A stretch of DNA of 64,000 bases. Origin: Vicingaceae bacterium. Its GTDB lineage: Bacteria > Bacteroidota > Bacteroidia > Flavobacteriales_E > Vicingaceae. How positions within the stretch are numbered: position 1 is the stretch's first letter; each line of letters opens with the position of its first letter. The stretch is from the NCBI GenBank assembly GCA_028245195.1, contig JAOKCF010000004.1:124001-188000 (forward strand), given 5' to 3'. Positions 41,082-48,199 of this stretch are shown one piece after another. The notes below the pieces were generated by a model. It was not told where the DNA came from, ran no database searches, and saw only the letters and a list, made by a program, of their open reading frames with translations. Made by a program: the position numbers and the translations under genes.

Positions 41082-41155
41082 GGCCCCGTAGTTCAACTGA
41101 ATAGAATATCAGATTTCGGCTCTGACGGTTACAGGTTTGAATCCTGTCGGGGTCA
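41082..41155 (+). tRNA. tRNA-Arg (anticodon TCG)
   Basis: A 74-nt cloverleaf: acceptor GGCCCCG/CGGGGTC with one G-T pair, D stem GTTC/GAAT, anticodon stem TCAGA/TCTGA with loop TTTCGGC (anticodon TCG, reads CGN), and T arm ACAGG-TTTGAAT-CCTGT. The discriminator is A and CCA is not encoded. A terminator follows at once. It marks the left edge of an accessory region, and its 3' end is partly repeated further right. Confidence 0.93.
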
Positions 41156-41157
41156 CG

Positions 41158-41320: not shown

Positions 41321-41338
41321 AATCCTGTGGAGGTCACT
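41321..41338 (+). repeat. Imperfect direct repeat of the tRNA-Arg 3' end
   Basis: AATCCTGTGGAGGTCACT resembles the tRNA-Arg 3' end at 41140-41157 (AATCCTGTCGGGGTCACG), with 15 of the first 17 bases the same, and like it is followed at once by a terminator hairpin. A weaker match (ATCCT then GAGGTCAC) lies at 47385-47402. Such copies are what integration into a tRNA gene leaves, but no integrase is present here. Confidence 0.5.
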
Positions 41339-41487: not shown

Positions 41488-42738
41488 TTATTTAAAATAG
41501 TCGAGTAAAAATTCTTCTGAAAAATACGGATAGTTCAGTTGTTTAGTCAGTTTGGTGTATTGCTTTTTGATTTGATATTTTTTATTGGCGGTTATGGCCG
41601 TTCCAAATAAATAAACTTGATGAATAATGGTGATAAATTCCTCATAGCTATATGCACAGTGAGTATAATTAAAAAGACGAGCGTATTTTTTCTGTTCAGG
41701 ATCTTTTTTACTGTGTTTAAAATAAAACATACACATTAAGTAAAAAGAGTTTAGATGGTGTTTTTGATAGTAGCATTCAATGCTAGTATCCAGATGAATT
41801 TTCTCTATTAGATAATTCATGAGCATAAAATCTTTAGTTAATATAGCTGTGTAAAACAATTCGTAAGAATAATCGATCATAAGAGATTTTTTTGAATGCA
41901 CTTCGAAATAATTGTCTAAAATTTCAGTAGAATTATCTCTGTCATCAGCTATTAGTTCTAATGCCAATAATCGACTGCACAAAATTGGATTTAATTGCTT
42001 GGAGTAAATTGAATCACCATTGATTTTTTTTTTTGGCTTTTGATTTAAAAAATCCCTAAACTCAAGTATTGCAGAGTTGAATAGAGTAATTTCTTTATCA
42101 AGTTCATTGCGTTTAATTATTTCTGTTTGTTCTCCATAGTATCCATTCAAACTAGAATAGTCCACAAAGGTTAAATACACACACTCAATATAATTAATAT
42201 TGCTAAGCAGTAGGGAATTGGTTGTAGGTTTTTTTCGAAGCAAAAAACCGATGGAGTTGCCCAATTTTAAGGCTTCCGAATATGTAAAGCTGTTGAAGTT
42301 GAGCGCATCTAATTTAAATATACGATCCATTAACGGATAGTTTTTATCATGCAATAATTCTCTTATTAGGAAGACAATAAAACCGATAAAATGTTCAGGT
42401 CTTTTTTTGGCTGTAATAACCAAATTTATGATTGCATGATGATCATCTTTAGCAAGCGCTTTATAGATTGTTTGATACAAATCAATATTGTCTTTATTTG
42501 GATAGTTTAAGATAAAATGTTGGTAGTTTTTGTAGCCAACAAATTGAGATAGAATATTTAGTGTGTTTTTGTTCGGTTTTGTACTTGGAGATAAACCATA
42601 AAATCGTTTGATTGTGCTGTAGCTGATATCTTTATCCAATATTTCTGTAATAGCATTAGAAATTAGCTCACAATCTCCTCTAGCTCGCACTGGTCTTGCA
42701 ATTTTAGCTTCAATTAAATTCTTCAGAGTGTTAATCAT
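41488..42738 (-). CDS. Putative regulator with Bacteroidota N-terminal DNA-binding-like domain, 416 aa
   Basis: The first 80 residues hold a pattern I know from many Bacteroidota proteins: CELISNAITEILDKDISYSTIKRFYGL, then SPSTKPNKNTLNILSQFVGYKNYQHF. The helix around SYSTIKRFYG resembles a recognition helix. The remaining 330 residues are all-helical and may form tetratricopeptide-like hairpins, with many Tyr and Leu. No enzyme motif is seen. It is divergent from the five-gene operon with an 87-nt gap that carries an 11-bp tandem repeat right next to its own start, so autoregulation and control of the operon are plausible. The GC content is low compared with core genes. I do not know its function. 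Confidence 0.75.
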   Translation of the reverse strand: MINTLKNLIEAKIARPVRARGDCELISNAITEILDKDISYSTIKRFYGLSPSTKPNKNTLNILSQFVGYKNYQHFILNYPNKDNIDLYQTIYKALAKDDHHAIINLVITAKKRPEHFIGFIVFLIRELLHDKNYPLMDRIFKLDALNFNSFTYSEALKLGNSIGFLLRKKPTTNSLLLSNINYIECVYLTFVDYSSLNGYYGEQTEIIKRNELDKEITLFNSAILEFRDFLNQKPKKKINGDSIYSKQLNPILCSRLLALELIADDRDNSTEILDNYFEVHSKKSLMIDYSYELFYTAILTKDFMLMNYLIEKIHLDTSIECYYQKHHLNSFYLMCMFYFKHSKKDPEQKKYARLFNYTHCAYSYEEFITIIHQVYLFGTAITANKKYQIKKQYTKLTKQLNYPYFSEEFLLDYFK

Positions 42739-42744
42739 ACGTCG

Positions 42745-42774
42745 TCAATTATGAATCAATTATGAATCAATTAT
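42745..42774. promoter_or_regulatory. Tandem 11-bp repeats in divergent promoter (operator candidate)
   Basis: TCAATTATGAA occurs at 42745-42755 and 42756-42766, with a third partial copy TCAATTAT at 42767-42774. The array starts 7 nt from the regulator's ATG and lies upstream of the TACATTTG box of the opposite operon. One full helical turn per repeat would place several protein copies on the same face of the DNA. Confidence 0.6.
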
Positions 42775-42789
42775 ACGTAAACTAAAGTG

Positions 42790-42797
42790 TACATTTG
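42790..42797 (+). promoter_or_regulatory. Bacteroidota-type -7 box (TACATTTG) for the five-gene operon
   Basis: TACATTTG matches TAnnTTTG and lies 28 nt before the ATG at 42826. It is directly downstream of the 11-bp repeats. Confidence 0.5.
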
Positions 42798-42825
42798 AAT
42801 TTTAATGTTTAATTATTAATAATAC

Positions 42826-43314
42826 ATGCCAAGATATATTAAACCTAGATTACGAGAGGAGTTATCTAGTGCATCTGAACAATTAGTTTCGGATTTATTC
42901 TTATCAATATTAGGGCAGATTAGAGTTTTTGAAGGCAAGAGTAATGGACCCGGAGCTATTTATGCAATTTCCCAATGTTTAAGGATGCTGCATGAACACT
43001 TTGAGGCAGGATATACCCAAGAAGCAAAAAAACATATTACTGATTTGGGTTTCCATACAGAACCAAGAACAATAAGAGAGATCTATAATCTAAGTAGTAA
43101 GATCGACAAGAGCGAACGAAAACTCTATGTTGAGCACACTGATGGTGGTATTAAAAAACTAGCGACTGATTTATTGAGCCTATATGAAGAATTAAAAGGC
43201 AATAAGCAAGATGTCGAAATGGTAAGCACTTTCATTAAAAACAATACCTACTTCATCACAAAACACAAAGACAAGAATAAAGATATAGATGAGAATTTTT
43301 CAATAAAAAATTAA
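42826..43314 (+). CDS. Accessory protein of unknown function, 162 aa (operon gene 1)
   Basis: A 162-aa soluble, mostly helical protein. Visible stretches are KPRLREELSSASEQLVSDLFLSIL, GPGAIYAISQCLRMLHEHFEAGYTQEAKKHITDLGF and SEHTDGG-like VEHTDGGIKKLATDLLSLYEEL. The tail is Lys/Asp-rich. No signal peptide, membrane segment, or known catalytic motif is seen, and I do not recognise a family. It heads the operon; the next gene starts 11 nt on, so its product probably works with the others. Confidence 0.75.
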   Translation: MPRYIKPRLREELSSASEQLVSDLFLSILGQIRVFEGKSNGPGAIYAISQCLRMLHEHFEAGYTQEAKKHITDLGFHTEPRTIREIYNLSSKIDKSERKLYVEHTDGGIKKLATDLLSLYEELKGNKQDVEMVSTFIKNNTYFITKHKDKNKDIDENFSIKN

Positions 43315-43325
43315 TAAAAAATAAA

Positions 43326-44417
43326 ATGGCAAGAGATTATACAAAATACACAGCAGAAGGTTTAGGAGAAAACCTTAACAAAAGAAAATTAGTTTTTACA
43401 ATCGTAAAAGACTGGGCAGAGAAAAATAATCCGTCCTTAGAAGAAATACAAACCGCATTTCCAGACGAAGTGCAAGGTGGTAAAGGCTTTATTGTAAAAG
43501 AAAGTGAAGTAAAAGACGCTAAGCGTTTTAACATGAAAGAACCATTGAGTATTAAAAATGGCTTGCACATAGTGATGTCTAATCAATGGGGAGAGAATAT
43601 TGCAGACTTTATTACTGGAGCTGAAAAGTTGGGCTACACTATCCTTAAAAACACTTCAAACAATCCGCAAGATCAACAAAATTCAGTGGATGTTAACACC
43701 AGCACATCATTAGAAGAAATAGATCAAATTATTGAAGAAATTATTCACGGTGATTTAACAACACAAGAAAATTTTAGAAAAAACACAATCAACTTTATTA
43801 ATGAAAATAATCAATACTACTGGTTTTTATTAGCCATAAATAACGCTTTACAAGTTTGGGAAAATAAAATAGATGATGAAGGATTAGATTTAAGTGTTGA
43901 TGGATTACATCTTAAAGGTAGAGAATTGAACTTTAACCCTTATGAAGAGTATAGACTATTTTATAATTGGAGAGAAGAAAAATTTGGTATTGAAGAAGAT
44001 GATGATGAACCAACTTCTTTCTTTAAGGCATTAATAGATTCATTCTATGACTTTGATTCGCACAGCGATTTGATATCGCTAGGTGAAAATGATTTAAACA
44101 AGTTTATAAATTTGTCTAAAACGGTTCTGTTATGCACAGTTTGTAAAGAATGTGAAAATGATACAGATACGGACGATCTCACTAATCTTTTATTGGGAAT
44201 AAATTTTGAAGACTTACCAGAAATTAATGATAAACTAAACGGAGGTGATATATCGAATGAAATATTAGAAGATGTTTTGGAAACCCTTGATGTTTCTGTT
44301 GAAGACTATAAGAATGAAGAAGAATTATGGAAAGATTTATACCTTCTTAATTATGAAGATGTAGCTCGAGATATTTTAGATAATGACGTGTTTGATAAAG
44401 ACTATATACGTTCGTAA
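43326..44417 (+). CDS. Acidic accessory protein of unknown function, 363 aa (operon gene 2)
   Basis: A 363-aa protein in two parts. The first 105 residues form a compact module: MARDYTKYTAEGLGENLNK, RKLVFTIVKDWAEKN, SLEEIQTAFPDEVQGGKGF and, closing it, VMSNQWGENIADFITGAEKLGY. I have an impression of similar modules at the N-termini of other uncharacterised accessory proteins but cannot name a family. From residue 125 on the protein is very acidic (runs such as EEDDDEPTSFF, DTDTDDLTNLL, EDVLETLDVSVEDYKNEEE), and looks helical. An acidic surface like this might mimic DNA or bind a basic partner. Gap to the preceding gene is 11 nt, to the next 15 nt. Confidence 0.75.
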   Translation: MARDYTKYTAEGLGENLNKRKLVFTIVKDWAEKNNPSLEEIQTAFPDEVQGGKGFIVKESEVKDAKRFNMKEPLSIKNGLHIVMSNQWGENIADFITGAEKLGYTILKNTSNNPQDQQNSVDVNTSTSLEEIDQIIEEIIHGDLTTQENFRKNTINFINENNQYYWFLLAINNALQVWENKIDDEGLDLSVDGLHLKGRELNFNPYEEYRLFYNWREEKFGIEEDDDEPTSFFKALIDSFYDFDSHSDLISLGENDLNKFINLSKTVLLCTVCKECENDTDTDDLTNLLLGINFEDLPEINDKLNGGDISNEILEDVLETLDVSVEDYKNEEELWKDLYLLNYEDVARDILDNDVFDKDYIRS

Positions 44418-44432
44418 CAACTACAATAATTT

Positions 44433-44876
44433 ATGAAGATTCTTAATATTGATTTAGATGGTGTTGTTGCAGATTTTGTTTCTGCAATGAATGCTCATCC
44501 CTTAAGAAACGAACTACCTTTTGATAAAGATCCGGATACTATTCCGGGTCTTTTTAGGAATTTGAAGCCCATAGAATCTGCGATTAGTTCAGTAGAAAAA
44601 TTACTTCATTCAGAGAAATATGAAGTGTATTTCCTTAGCACAGCACCCTGGGATAACCCTTCTGCATGGACAGATAAGCGTTTGTGGTTAGCAGAACAAT
44701 TTGGTGATAAAATAAACAGAAGGCTTATCTTAACCCACCGTAAAGATTTGGTTAAAGGCGATATTTTAATTGACGACAGACCAAATAATGGAGCAAAGGA
44801 TTTTGATGGGGAGTGGATTCATTTTGCTTCTAAAAAGTTCCCTAACTGGGATTCGGTATTAAATTATTTATTATGA
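44433..44876 (+). CDS. HAD-superfamily 5'(3')-deoxyribonucleotidase-like phosphatase (operon gene 3)
   Basis: A 147-aa HAD enzyme of the NT5C type. Motif I is NIDLDGVVADF (Asp7 nucleophile, Asp9 acid/base), followed by the small cap region, PWDNPSAWTDKRLWL with motif II-like FLSTAPW, and motif IV GDILIDDRPNNGAKDF. This is the full set for a phosphatase acting on (deoxy)nucleoside monophosphates. Similar genes occur in phages and in many genomes. Inside this operon it could deplete or balance nucleotides, but it might also be a housekeeping passenger. Spacing of 15 nt from gene 2 argues for shared transcription. Confidence 0.85.
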   Translation: MKILNIDLDGVVADFVSAMNAHPLRNELPFDKDPDTIPGLFRNLKPIESAISSVEKLLHSEKYEVYFLSTAPWDNPSAWTDKRLWLAEQFGDKINRRLILTHRKDLVKGDILIDDRPNNGAKDFDGEWIHFASKKFPNWDSVLNYLL

Positions 44877-44945
44877 AATACCTAACAATAATTTAGAAAC
44901 CAACTGAAGCTCTATATTTAGAAAATTTCTCTTCATATTTTATAA

Positions 44946-46913
44946 ATGAAAGCACTATCAAAATCACGATTTAAACAAGGACTAGAATGTCCTAATAAAC
45001 TCTATTTTTCAAATAGTCCAAATGTTTATCATAATGTTAAAAACGAAGATCCGTTTTTGCAAGCACTCGCTAGTGGTGGTTTTCAAATAGAAGAGTATGC
45101 ACGCTTACAATATCCGGGTGGAATTTTAGTAGACGCACCTTATGAGGGTAATTATTATCAAGATTTAGCAGATCAAACTACTGAACTCTTAAAGCAAGAA
45201 AAGATAATTATTTATGAAGCTGCTTTTTATGTGAAAGATCTATTTATCAGAACGGATGTTCTGGTAAAAAAAGGTAAAAAAATTGAACTTATTGAAGTAA
45301 AAGCAAAATCCATTGACCCAAATAATGACCATAATTTTATTGGGAAAAAAGGTGGTTTGGTAGGTGCCTGGAAGCCTTATTTATTTGATTTGGCTTTTCA
45401 AAGTTATGTAGCCCAACTTTGTTTACCCACTTATGAAATCAATCCTTACTTATGTCTAGTTAACAAAACGAAAGCAGCTACTGTAGAAGGCTTAAATCAA
45501 CAATTTAGAGTCAAACAAAATTCTGATAAACGAACTGGTGTAGATGTTTTGGTAGATGATGTAAGACAGCTAGGAGATAATCTGCTGCATTTGGAAGATT
45601 TGACAGAGGTGGTTGATAAAATACATAAAAACTACTTTAAATATTACGATAATCTAAATTTTAATGAAGCCATAAAGTTATTGCGCAAAATTAGAATTAA
45701 GGATTATTATCCCAATTGGCCAACACAGTTTGGAGCTTGTAAAAAGTGTGAATTTAAGAAAGGCGAAAGTGAAAAAGGTCAATTAAAGCAATCTGGTTTT
45801 GAATATTGTTTGAAAACACAACATCAATGGACTGATTTAGACTTTGCTAAACCTAACATTTTTAATGTTTGGGATTTAAAAGATCCAAAAATAATGGAGC
45901 AGGGGCTACTTTTTAAATCTCAACTGACCCCAGAGCATATCAAATACAAAGAGACTGCCGGAAAACTACATCGTACCGAACGGCAGTGGCTGCAAATTGA
46001 AAAAGAACGAGATGGTGATTTTACAGAGTTTATTGATAAAGCCGGTTTAAGGGCTGAAATGGACACTTGGCTATTCCCGCTTCACTTCATAGATTTTGAA
46101 ACATCAACAGTGCCGCTACCCTTCCATTTAGGACGCAAGCCTTATGAGCAAATAGCCTTTCAGTTTTCACATCATATTTATTATGAAGATGGCCGCATTG
46201 AACATGCTAATGAATATATCAATACCAATCCTGGGGAATTCCCGAATTTCAAATTCATTGAGCATTTAAAAAAGGCTTTATCGAACGATGACGGCACAAT
46301 TTTTAGATATTCAACGCATGAAAATACGATCCTTAATTCGATTAGAGATCAATTGAAATCTAGTCAATACCAAAAAAAAGAGTCTCTTATTGCATTCATA
46401 GAATCGATTTGCCATTCAAAAAGTGAACATCCTGACCCTTGGTTACAACCTAAAAGAGATATGGTTGACCTATGTGATATGGTAAAAAAGTACTATTACA
46501 ATCCACATACCAAAGGATCTAATTCTATTAAAAAAGTACTCCCTGCGGTATTAAAATCAAGCACGATCGTAAAAGAAAAGTATGGTCAACCTATTGGTGA
46601 AATTGCCGTTTCAAGTCAAAATTTTGATACAACTCATATTTGGTTAAAAAAAGAAGATGCTGAAATTATCAGTCCTTACAAAATGTTGCCAGAGGTATTT
46701 GAAGGTATAAGTTCTGATGAAATTGAAGCAAATGTATCTGATATTGAGAATGTTGAAGATGGTGGTGCAGCTTTAACAGCTTATGGCAAGATTCAATATA
46801 CAGATATGTCTGATAAGGAGCGAAAAGAAATTGCAGATGCACTTAAGCGTTATTGTGAGTTAGATACTTTAGCTATGGTAATGATTTATGAGCATTTAAA
46901 ATCAATTATTTAA
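44946..46913 (+). CDS. DUF2779 protein: Cas4/RecB-like Fe-S nuclease half plus DEDD-exonuclease-like half (operon gene 4)
   Basis: A 655-aa protein. The N-terminal half begins LSKSRFKQGLECPNKLYFS, carries a PD-(D/E)xK-like stretch (IRTDVLV and LIEVKAKS), and ends with three cysteines, CKKCEF and FEYC, which with the first Cys fit the 4Fe-4S arrangement of Cas4 and AddB-type nucleases. The C-terminal half is the DUF2779 region: FIDFETSTVPLPFHLGRKPYEQIAFQFSHH has the D-x-E of DEDD 3'-5' exonucleases; FRYSTHENTIL, RDMVDLCDMVKKYYY and YCELDTLAMVMIYEHL supply later Asp positions. Both activities are inferred from motifs. It starts 69 nt after gene 3, and gene 5 follows after 10 nt. Confidence 0.85.
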   Translation: MKALSKSRFKQGLECPNKLYFSNSPNVYHNVKNEDPFLQALASGGFQIEEYARLQYPGGILVDAPYEGNYYQDLADQTTELLKQEKIIIYEAAFYVKDLFIRTDVLVKKGKKIELIEVKAKSIDPNNDHNFIGKKGGLVGAWKPYLFDLAFQSYVAQLCLPTYEINPYLCLVNKTKAATVEGLNQQFRVKQNSDKRTGVDVLVDDVRQLGDNLLHLEDLTEVVDKIHKNYFKYYDNLNFNEAIKLLRKIRIKDYYPNWPTQFGACKKCEFKKGESEKGQLKQSGFEYCLKTQHQWTDLDFAKPNIFNVWDLKDPKIMEQGLLFKSQLTPEHIKYKETAGKLHRTERQWLQIEKERDGDFTEFIDKAGLRAEMDTWLFPLHFIDFETSTVPLPFHLGRKPYEQIAFQFSHHIYYEDGRIEHANEYINTNPGEFPNFKFIEHLKKALSNDDGTIFRYSTHENTILNSIRDQLKSSQYQKKESLIAFIESICHSKSEHPDPWLQPKRDMVDLCDMVKKYYYNPHTKGSNSIKKVLPAVLKSSTIVKEKYGQPIGEIAVSSQNFDTTHIWLKKEDAEIISPYKMLPEVFEGISSDEIEANVSDIENVEDGGAALTAYGKIQYTDMSDKERKEIADALKRYCELDTLAMVMIYEHLKSII

Positions 46914-46923
46914 TGGACTTTCT

Positions 46924-47268
46924 ATGCAAAACCCTAACTTTTTAACGGAACTGATGCAAATCTGGCTCGCACAATATGCTAATAATCAAGGAAATTCACT
47001 TACAACTATGGGTTTGTTTCATTGGGAATTCCGCCCCAACAAACATAAACCTGAAAAGCTCAGAAGAATTCCAAGAATAGACATGTCTATGGAAATAAAA
47101 AATTCGAGTTTTAAGCATGCGGTTTATTTTTTAGAAATAGATGCTGAAACGCTGCACGTATTTGAATCTTCAGGCATTGCCTTAGGAGGATCAAATATTG
47201 CACATGAATATGCTTTAAAAGAAGAGGTGTTTATTAAAGGAAAAGTTTTAATGAAATCAATTCGTTAA
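46924..47268 (+). CDS. Accessory protein of unknown function, 114 aa (operon gene 5)
   Basis: A 114-aa small soluble protein: helical start (FLTELMQIWLAQYANNQ), a middle with basic residues (PNKHKPEKLRRIPRIDMSMEI) and a strand-rich end (FLEIDAETLHVFESSGIAL). No motif I can name. It starts 10 nt after the nuclease gene and closes the operon. The G-S-N-I-A-H-E-Y-A stretch near the end may form a loop-helix. Real by spacing and codon pattern, function unknown. Confidence 0.65.
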   Translation: MQNPNFLTELMQIWLAQYANNQGNSLTTMGLFHWEFRPNKHKPEKLRRIPRIDMSMEIKNSSFKHAVYFLEIDAETLHVFESSGIALGGSNIAHEYALKEEVFIKGKVLMKSIR

Positions 47269-47408
47269 CTATTAAAATTGATGTAAACAAAAGGACTAAA
47301 GCTTGCATTGTATCGTGGTCATTTCAACCCTACATGTTTCAGTCACCAGAGAAGATTCTTTAAATCCTCTAAAAAGTTTGAACTATCCTCACTTGAGGTC
47401 ACAATAAA

Positions 47409-47443
47409 AGAAGGCAATTAGCAGTTTAAACGCTAGTTGTCTT
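47409..47443 (+). terminator. Probable terminator for the five-gene operon
   Basis: AAGGCAATTAGC pairs with GCTAGTTGTCTT (12 bp with two G-T pairs) around a short loop; T-rich DNA follows. It lies about 140 nt after the last operon gene. Confidence 0.5.
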
Positions 47444-47640
47444 TATTGTTTCCCCATATCTTCCCCACCACAGAGCTTTTTAGAATTATTTGCAGTAAAA
47501 GAGGTTTGACAAAACTCACAATGCTTTACTAGACCAATCTACCCTGTTTAGCTACCACCCCCAATAGAAAATAATTTATAATCTCCCGACTCAATATCGC
47601 AAAGTTGACAGCTACCAAATTTTCTTCTCACCTCACAGGT
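47443..47640 (-). pseudogene. Remnant of a small zinc-ribbon-like protein
   Basis: In one minus-strand frame ending at TAA 47443-47445 the text reads FGSCQLCDIESGDYKLFSIGGGS, stop, TG, stop, IGLVKHCEFCQTSFTAN and KLCGGEDMGK. Two CxxC pairs suggest a zinc ribbon, and the two in-frame stops (TAA and TAG) suggest that it is dead. I cannot name a family. Confidence 0.35.
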
Positions 47641-48199
47641 AAAAACCTGCTCTTAAAAGAACACAGCACTGCCTTTATTTTATAAAAAACATCTAAGCCG
47701 AAAACATTTCTCCTTTATTTCTAAACTGGCCTATAAAGAGATAGATACACATTTAAAATTAAAAAGAATTATCTAGAACTGCAAGATTAATGTAAATTAA
47801 TAGCAGAAACTAAATGTTAAATGGCTCGAATAAATGAAGAATCTTTAAAACAACAGAGTGGTTTCGAAAACTTGTTATAATTATGTATTTTAGATTCAAG
47901 ATGAACATTAACCCTGCCAGTTTTTATACTGACGGATTATAAACGCGCACTGTCCACTCGGCAGGCTTCTATGAGACACAACTTTTAGTGGCATCGGAGT
48001 GTCGAGACCATACAGGTATGAATGACATACAACAAAAGAAGTTTACTATCTGCCTAACAGGCGATTGCTTTTTTGTTGATAGATTAGGATTCCTTTTTTC
48101 ATAAGGAACTAACAAGAGCCAAATAGTTCTGTTTTTAGATTGATTATTGACTTTTTAATAGAGTTGTGTGTTTTAATCGCATTTAGTGTTCACAGAGGC

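Follow-up and report, generated by a model that had tools for sequence, protein, structure and literature searches.

A tRNA-associated island of a Vicingaceae bacterium carries a modular nuclease-nucleotidase cassette with a probable role in defence

The locus described here, a five-gene operon with a divergent regulator-like gene, lies at positions 41488-47268 of a 64,000-nucleotide stretch (the window) of contig JAOKCF010000004.1 from a Vicingaceae bacterium. It brings together parts of known kinds (a Cas4/DEDD-type nuclease, an NT5C enzyme, a PDC-S57 domain), and as far as our searches show it is novel both in how these are combined and in being mobile and modular. The largest product, a DUF2779 protein, has the two-domain layout of the UU173-type and TM0106-type solo nucleases, in which a Cas4-like domain is joined to an RNase H-like one; it differs from these in belonging to a long subfamily of ~650 aa and in having fixed partners, a small protein (p114) and the NT5C enzyme. 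A passage of PMC3985635 places DUF2779 among presumed 3'-5' exonucleases with a PD-(D/E)XK-like DUF83 domain, and nothing on defence appears in the titles, abstracts or passages found on this family. The nucleotidase shares HAD motifs and similarity to PDB entry 2jao with the mammalian cytosolic and mitochondrial NT5C enzymes and their phage homologues, but unlike these it is encoded in a mobile nuclease cassette. The Chp effectors of type III-A CRISPR, CARF-HAD phosphatases in the form of membrane CARF fusions that act on dATP, ATP and IMP (PMC12715507), set a precedent for immunity by a HAD phosphatase that acts on nucleotides, yet their architecture is unlike that of the cassette, which contains none of the other parts of Chp. 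No obvious cas gene was seen among the open reading frames (ORFs) of the 39-50 kb region, in which no search aimed at arrays or cas genes was made. A further relative, PDC-S57 of PADLOC-DB 2.0.0, is an uncharacterised candidate (PDC entries are defence candidates proposed from genome context) for which a literature search found no paper. The C-terminal half of its ~245-aa model corresponds to the N-terminal domain (N-dom) of relatives of p363, the second operon product; in the cassette this domain is instead N-terminal, occurs in multiple copies with other tails, and shares an operon with the nucleotidase and DUF2779. Nothing comparable to the cassette was found in PADLOC or in the literature searched, in agreement with an earlier reading made from the letters of this DNA (the sequence-only reading), which knew of no named system with this gene set.

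That reading had described a closely spaced five-gene operon with a divergent regulator after tRNA-Arg, and all six ORFs as well as the tRNA were recovered. Downstream of tRNA-Arg(tcg) (41082-41156, + strand; ARAGORN) lies the gene of the regulator-like protein reg416 (416 aa; 41488-42738, - strand), which faces the operon across 87 nt (42739-42825). The operon, on the + strand and with gaps of 11, 15, 69 and 10 nt, encodes p162, a predicted all-helical protein (42826-43314); p363, composed of N-dom and a variable acidic C-terminal part (43326-44417); a 147-aa HAD 5'(3')-deoxyribonucleotidase of the NT5C family (44433-44876); the 655-aa DUF2779 protein, a predicted two-headed nuclease with a Cas4-like PD-(D/E)XK and a DEDD 3'-5' exonuclease domain (44946-46913); and p114, whose gene adjoins that of DUF2779 (46924-47268). 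Pfam searches with the six proteins returned NT5C for the HAD protein (E 7.6e-17) and DUF2779 for the 655-aa protein (E 6.8e-26), no match for p162, p363 and p114, and no acceptable match for reg416. The strongly acidic protein of the earlier description is p363 (pI 4.2, with a C-terminal part of pI 4.05). We favour, with a probability of about 55%, the reading that a modular cassette for conflict with phages or other mobile elements is carried by an island that has inserted at the tRNA-Arg 3' end; in this cassette the nuclease would destroy foreign DNA and the nucleotidase would remove deoxynucleoside monophosphates (dNMPs).

Comparison with related genomes indicates that the operon is accessory and is carried on a small integrative island, the left edge of which is the tRNA-Arg 3' end. 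In three genomes of the same genus (G032, G034 and G035), tRNA-Arg(tcg) has as its immediate neighbour, within ~150-180 bp, the methyltransferase gene found 3' of the operon in the window, and the cassette is absent; these empty sites rule out a cluster of core genes and bear out the accessory nature that had been proposed for the locus. At the equivalent site of G033 (G033:C22:1-3600), a tyrosine recombinase gene (618-1874; Pfam Phage_int_SAM_5 and Phage_integrase) is accompanied by a 3' fragment of tRNA-Arg at ~2062-2084, which makes the site a hotspot used by integrating elements. Within the window, the tRNA-Arg 3' end, CCTGTCGGGGTCAC, is recopied on the + strand at 41324-41337 as CCTGTGGAGGTCAC, identical at 12 of 14 positions. 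This copy, the left attachment-site-like (att-like) site of the island, is the best match in the span, none of 1000 dinucleotide shuffles reached its score, and the best match in the other 53 kb of the window was 11. The part of it at 41330-41337, GAGGTCAC, recurs on the + strand at 47395-47402 as a candidate right end repeat, so that the island probably ends there, after p114; two of the three occurrences of this motif on the + strand of the 64 kb flank the cassette. Both sites surfaced by targeted comparison and were not shown by a general repeat search. The island has a G+C content of 32%, versus 38% in its flanks. Insertion at a tRNA 3' end, end repeats and an empty site in relatives, as expected of tRNA-integrated islands, are thus all present, and the empty sites, the integrase and tRNA fragment of G033 and the att-like copies argue for the reading favoured here. 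Between the right end and the methyltransferase gene, ~800 bp of the window (47403-48199) are devoid of genes; since the tRNA-methyltransferase gap is only ~150-180 bp in the relatives, this segment may consist of decayed remnants of earlier insertions.

The neighbourhood recurs outside this genus. A scan with p114 led to G095, from a different family of the same class, where one locus (L056) encodes, in this order, an N-dom/TerB-like protein (283 aa), a 175-aa protein, an N-dom protein (333 aa), the nucleotidase, DUF2779 and p114; in front of these stands an ORF that carries a PDDEXK_4 domain. Identity to the window amounts to 89% for the nucleotidase, 83% for DUF2779, 66% for p114, again directly 3' of DUF2779, and 69% for N-dom. 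This cassette is situated 3' of a tRNA-Met, a copy of whose 3' end (11/12) is found just past the other cassette edge (0/1000 flank shuffles). Two further cassettes, both partial, are present in G417: one (L095) starts 170 bp past another tRNA-Met and consists of three tandem N-dom proteins followed by the nucleotidase at the contig end, and the other (L096) comprises a divergent regulator, an N-dom/TerB-like protein, small proteins of bPH type, a broken N-dom protein and the nucleotidase, with no DUF2779 within the stretch read. A contig of a Formosa metagenome-assembled genome (L021) carries a partial cassette of p162, N-dom, remnants of small genes, the nucleotidase and the start of DUF2779, and in L022 two N-dom proteins precede p162. 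In three genomes (the window's, G095 and G417) the cassette is therefore linked to a tRNA 3' end, and its recurrence at tRNA-Met 3' ends in the latter two supports the island reading. Conservation of the core amounts to 85-89% identity for the nucleotidase (65-89% when all the other cassettes are counted) and 76-83% for DUF2779. By these comparisons the five genes of the earlier description do not form one fixed unit: the fixed part is made of an N-dom protein, the nucleotidase, DUF2779 and p114, while p162 is an optional, rare member and the regulator can be replaced; the genes are neither scattered without a conserved neighbourhood nor core genes at this place. Scans of IMG/VR with p162, N-dom and p114 gave no matches, and NT5C relatives on plasmids had no common neighbourhood in the four loci read. 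In L021 (1700-2750), two near-identical ~80-bp leaders each stand 5' of a small cassette gene, and these genes look as if they had been added together with their own upstream sequence.

N-dom, which spans residues 1 to ~106-110 of p363, appears as a shuffled domain with changing C-termini: besides the relative in L056 it is 82% identical in L021 and 41-49% identical in others, and the tails differ. It seems often to be preceded by a winged-helix-like segment. In a KAP NTPase (L109) and an HSDR_N nuclease (L110) it is C-terminal, and elsewhere N-dom genes adjoin PDDEXK_4 nuclease genes. This is also the case in Dulem virus 37 (PP511443.1, 7060-8318), where a stand-alone N-dom gene overlaps a PDDEXK_4 nuclease gene between the terminase and portal genes; plasmid and phage collections searched with p162 and p363 yielded nothing beyond this one. 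Ten N-dom proteins from different loci, that of Dulem virus 37 included, match PDC-S57 (E 1e-14 to 3e-5), on the half of the model that corresponds to N-dom. The N-dom profile matches 19 of 395 genomes of the class, including G309, where a weak and perhaps spurious match falls within an alpha/beta-hydrolase-like ORF. Both the contrast between a conserved core and variable N-dom C-termini and the association of N-dom relatives with PDC-S57, KAP NTPase, HSDR_N and PDDEXK_4 argue for a conflict cassette. A 40-aa remnant of N-dom, joined to an unrelated 700-aa protein, was seen in L038 (G002:C10, 8917-15020), beside SPFH/GYF and TerB/zinc-ribbon genes and ~17 kb from a DUF2779 gene.

The neighbours of DUF2779 relatives point in the same direction. 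Among long relatives from the window's family, one (L026) has type I restriction-modification (RM)-like genes and a PDC-M62 pair on one side and, on the other, a Cyclase-E2-NucC operon of a cyclic oligonucleotide-based anti-phage signalling system (CBASS), and two (L029 and L030) lie 3' of AbiEi/AbiEii with Ssp/Dnd-type or LmuB/Orf5-type genes near. SspA, SspC and SspD genes are found among the neighbours of DUF2779 relatives (L138 is close to SspC), and another relative (L041) is near a type I RM system with PrrC. These associations with CBASS, AbiEi/AbiEii, Ssp, PDC-M62 and type I RM genes speak for the conflict cassette; the defence role proposed by the sequence-only reading gains this contextual backing together with that of the PDC-S57 domain, although no cassette gene of the window has a direct match to a defence family, and we regard it as reasonable but unproven. 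Alternatively, the island itself might be what benefits from the genes: the nuclease and its partners would process DNA for its excision, transfer or integration or exclude rivals from the tRNA site, with host defence as a side effect or absent. The close tie to tRNA 3' ends in these three genomes, the use of the same site by other elements (the integrase of G033) and the lack of an integrase inside, such that some gene might matter for mobility, would fit this explanation. DUF2779 relatives, however, also occur away from tRNAs, in islands of several defence systems and with AbiE pairs, the N-dom fusions to KAP and HSDR_N fit conflict better, and it is not obvious what a nucleotidase would do in transfer, so that we consider it unlikely.

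Both enzymes, which the sequence-only reading took for a HAD deoxyribonucleotidase-like enzyme and a two-headed nuclease (Cas4/RecB-like plus DEDD-like), retain the residues expected for activity. By profile and motifs, the 147-aa protein is an NT5C-type HAD deoxyribonucleotidase: it scores 62.2 bits against Pfam NT5C (cut-off 24.8), matches the mammalian 5'(3')-deoxyribonucleotidase structure 2jao (E 4.5e-11), and has intact HAD motifs I-IV (IDLDGV at 6, STAPW at 69, THRKDL at 101 and IDDRP at 113). The DUF2779 protein (PF11074, 91.4 bits versus a cut-off of 23.3) keeps both predicted active sites and the putative Cas4-like Fe-S cysteines, as the PD-(D/E)XK residues D104, E117, K119 and Q152, the cysteines C15, C265, C268 and C288, and the DEDD residues D383, E385, D508 and D640 along with Y636 are invariant across ten relatives; we assign their catalytic roles from what is established for Cas4 and DEDD nucleases. 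The retention of these residues, and the presence in G002 of another HAD-fold phosphatase (NIF, 3e-22) directly 5' of DUF2779, again favour a conflict cassette. Since a nuclease and a 5'(3')-deoxyribonucleotidase form a chemically consistent pair, the operon could instead scavenge or repair nucleic acids, degrading damaged or imported DNA and yielding deoxynucleosides for salvage; yet housekeeping salvage would be expected to be conserved in relatives, whereas the distribution is patchy (N-dom, p162 and p114 being rare), the genes sit on an island, and N-dom proteins occur in multiple copies with changing tails, which makes this explanation decidedly doubtful. A toxin-antitoxin-like or stress module, in which a self-toxic nuclease would be held by p114 or p363, is very improbable: DUF2779 does lie 3' of AbiEi/AbiEii in two genomes and the small p114 directly 3' of DUF2779 in three, among them G415 with a distant relative (two-sequence blastp E 8e-8; hhalign E 1e-4), but most of the DUF2779 genes looked at had no recognisable p114 beside them, and a multi-gene N-dom set is unlike a toxin-antitoxin pair. 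Elsewhere, genes for a GIY-YIG protein and for a protein of 1702 aa lie between two DUF2779 genes (L137, G175:C14, 6039-16400), and in G420 (L136) DUF2779 is 3' of an ADP-ribosylglycohydrolase gene.

If the cassette does act in conflict, the N-dom proteins and p162 might sense infection, or else recognise foreign DNA or tag it, and these partner proteins might direct or trigger the nuclease. With p114 as a partner or control subunit, DUF2779 would use its PD-(D/E)XK domain and its 3'-5' exonuclease domain to open foreign DNA and degrade it to 5'-dNMPs; the nucleotidase would turn these into deoxynucleosides, thereby blocking their recycling by the phage, and reg416 might repress the operon through the tandem repeats of the 87-nt gap. 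Several points weigh against the conflict cassette. The substrates and the order of action are guesses, and the defence role is drawn from association (the PDC-S57 domain and defence-island neighbours), the neighbours forming a consistent but anecdotal picture, given without a background rate and not a measured enrichment. PADLOC-DB 2.0.0 assigned 0 families to the six proteins at E values up to 1, and p363 of the window itself has no PDC-S57 match. There is one complete second copy beside the partial ones, so that the case for linking all the parts comes from few loci, and DUF2779 and NT5C proteins are also found apart from each other. Furthermore, the right att is a short (8 nt) and weak match, and the integrase that such an island would be expected to carry was not found, the ORF list containing no integrase-like ORF between 41157 and 48199. 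What the comparisons do establish is an accessory, tRNA-targeted cassette with a conserved core, shuffled N-dom partners and predicted catalytic residues in place. If correct, the favoured reading would add an undescribed defence system, mobile and modular, in which DNA degradation is coupled to the removal of the released nucleotides. The cassette also offers a lead to the function of DUF2779, a nuclease family that is widespread but uncharacterised, and of the PDC-S57 domain, seen here as a shared module in fusions with a KAP NTPase, a restriction nuclease and TerB-like parts.

Structure prediction offers a lead on N-dom. In the AlphaFold2 model of p363, N-dom has a pLDDT of about 67-86 and the tail is without confidence, so that only N-dom was usable. 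Its best whole-domain structural match is the DNA-binding domain of SeqA on DNA (3fmt; 90 residues, rmsd 3.6), at a weak Z of 4.2, and the likeness concerns N-dom alone. A comparison of hidden Markov models aligns the RYF...DG and NQWG loop of N-dom with RVYF...NG and ITNTNTG of SeqA, without significance: the score of 18.6 is above 100 shuffles (maximum 17.2) and below one of 116 real-protein decoys. The Pfam SeqA profile PF03925 matched the E. coli control but nothing in G000, Foldseek returned no match at E <0.2 (BFVD) or <0.7 (PDB), and the N-dom profile had none among PDB sequences. Kinship to SeqA is thus suggestive but not significant. It would be a bold and rather improbable extension that N-dom is a SeqA-fold reader of DNA state (e.g., methylation), in which the invariant NQWG loop replaces the recognition loop of SeqA, and a mobile targeting module whose swapped tails direct the shared nuclease and nucleotidase to different foreign DNAs, amounting to a new class of modular immunity that senses DNA state on tRNA islands.

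The regulator and p162 lie outside the fixed part of the cassette. reg416 is 33% identical over its full length to a divergent 411-aa protein of L096, and 28% identical over 72 aa to a 404-aa protein of L095. The tandem repeats noticed earlier in the 87-nt gap are real: approximately three copies of an 11-bp unit, TCAATTATGAA, lie at about 42745-42776, with a 19-nt self-match run reached in 0/2000 dinucleotide shuffles, and they possibly constitute an operator; repeats in the divergent promoter of L096 are not above chance (438/2000 shuffles). The AlphaFold2 model of p162 (pLDDT 52) was too poor for a structure search, and relatives of this protein were found only in L021 (66% identity), L022 (55%) and L023 of G205 (52%), plus a weak one in G208. 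Repeat-like proteins of ~100 aa (KKQFxxxF...IRIYNG) are encoded beside p162 at L023:2214-3749 and beside the N-dom KAP NTPase at L109:6054-6359.

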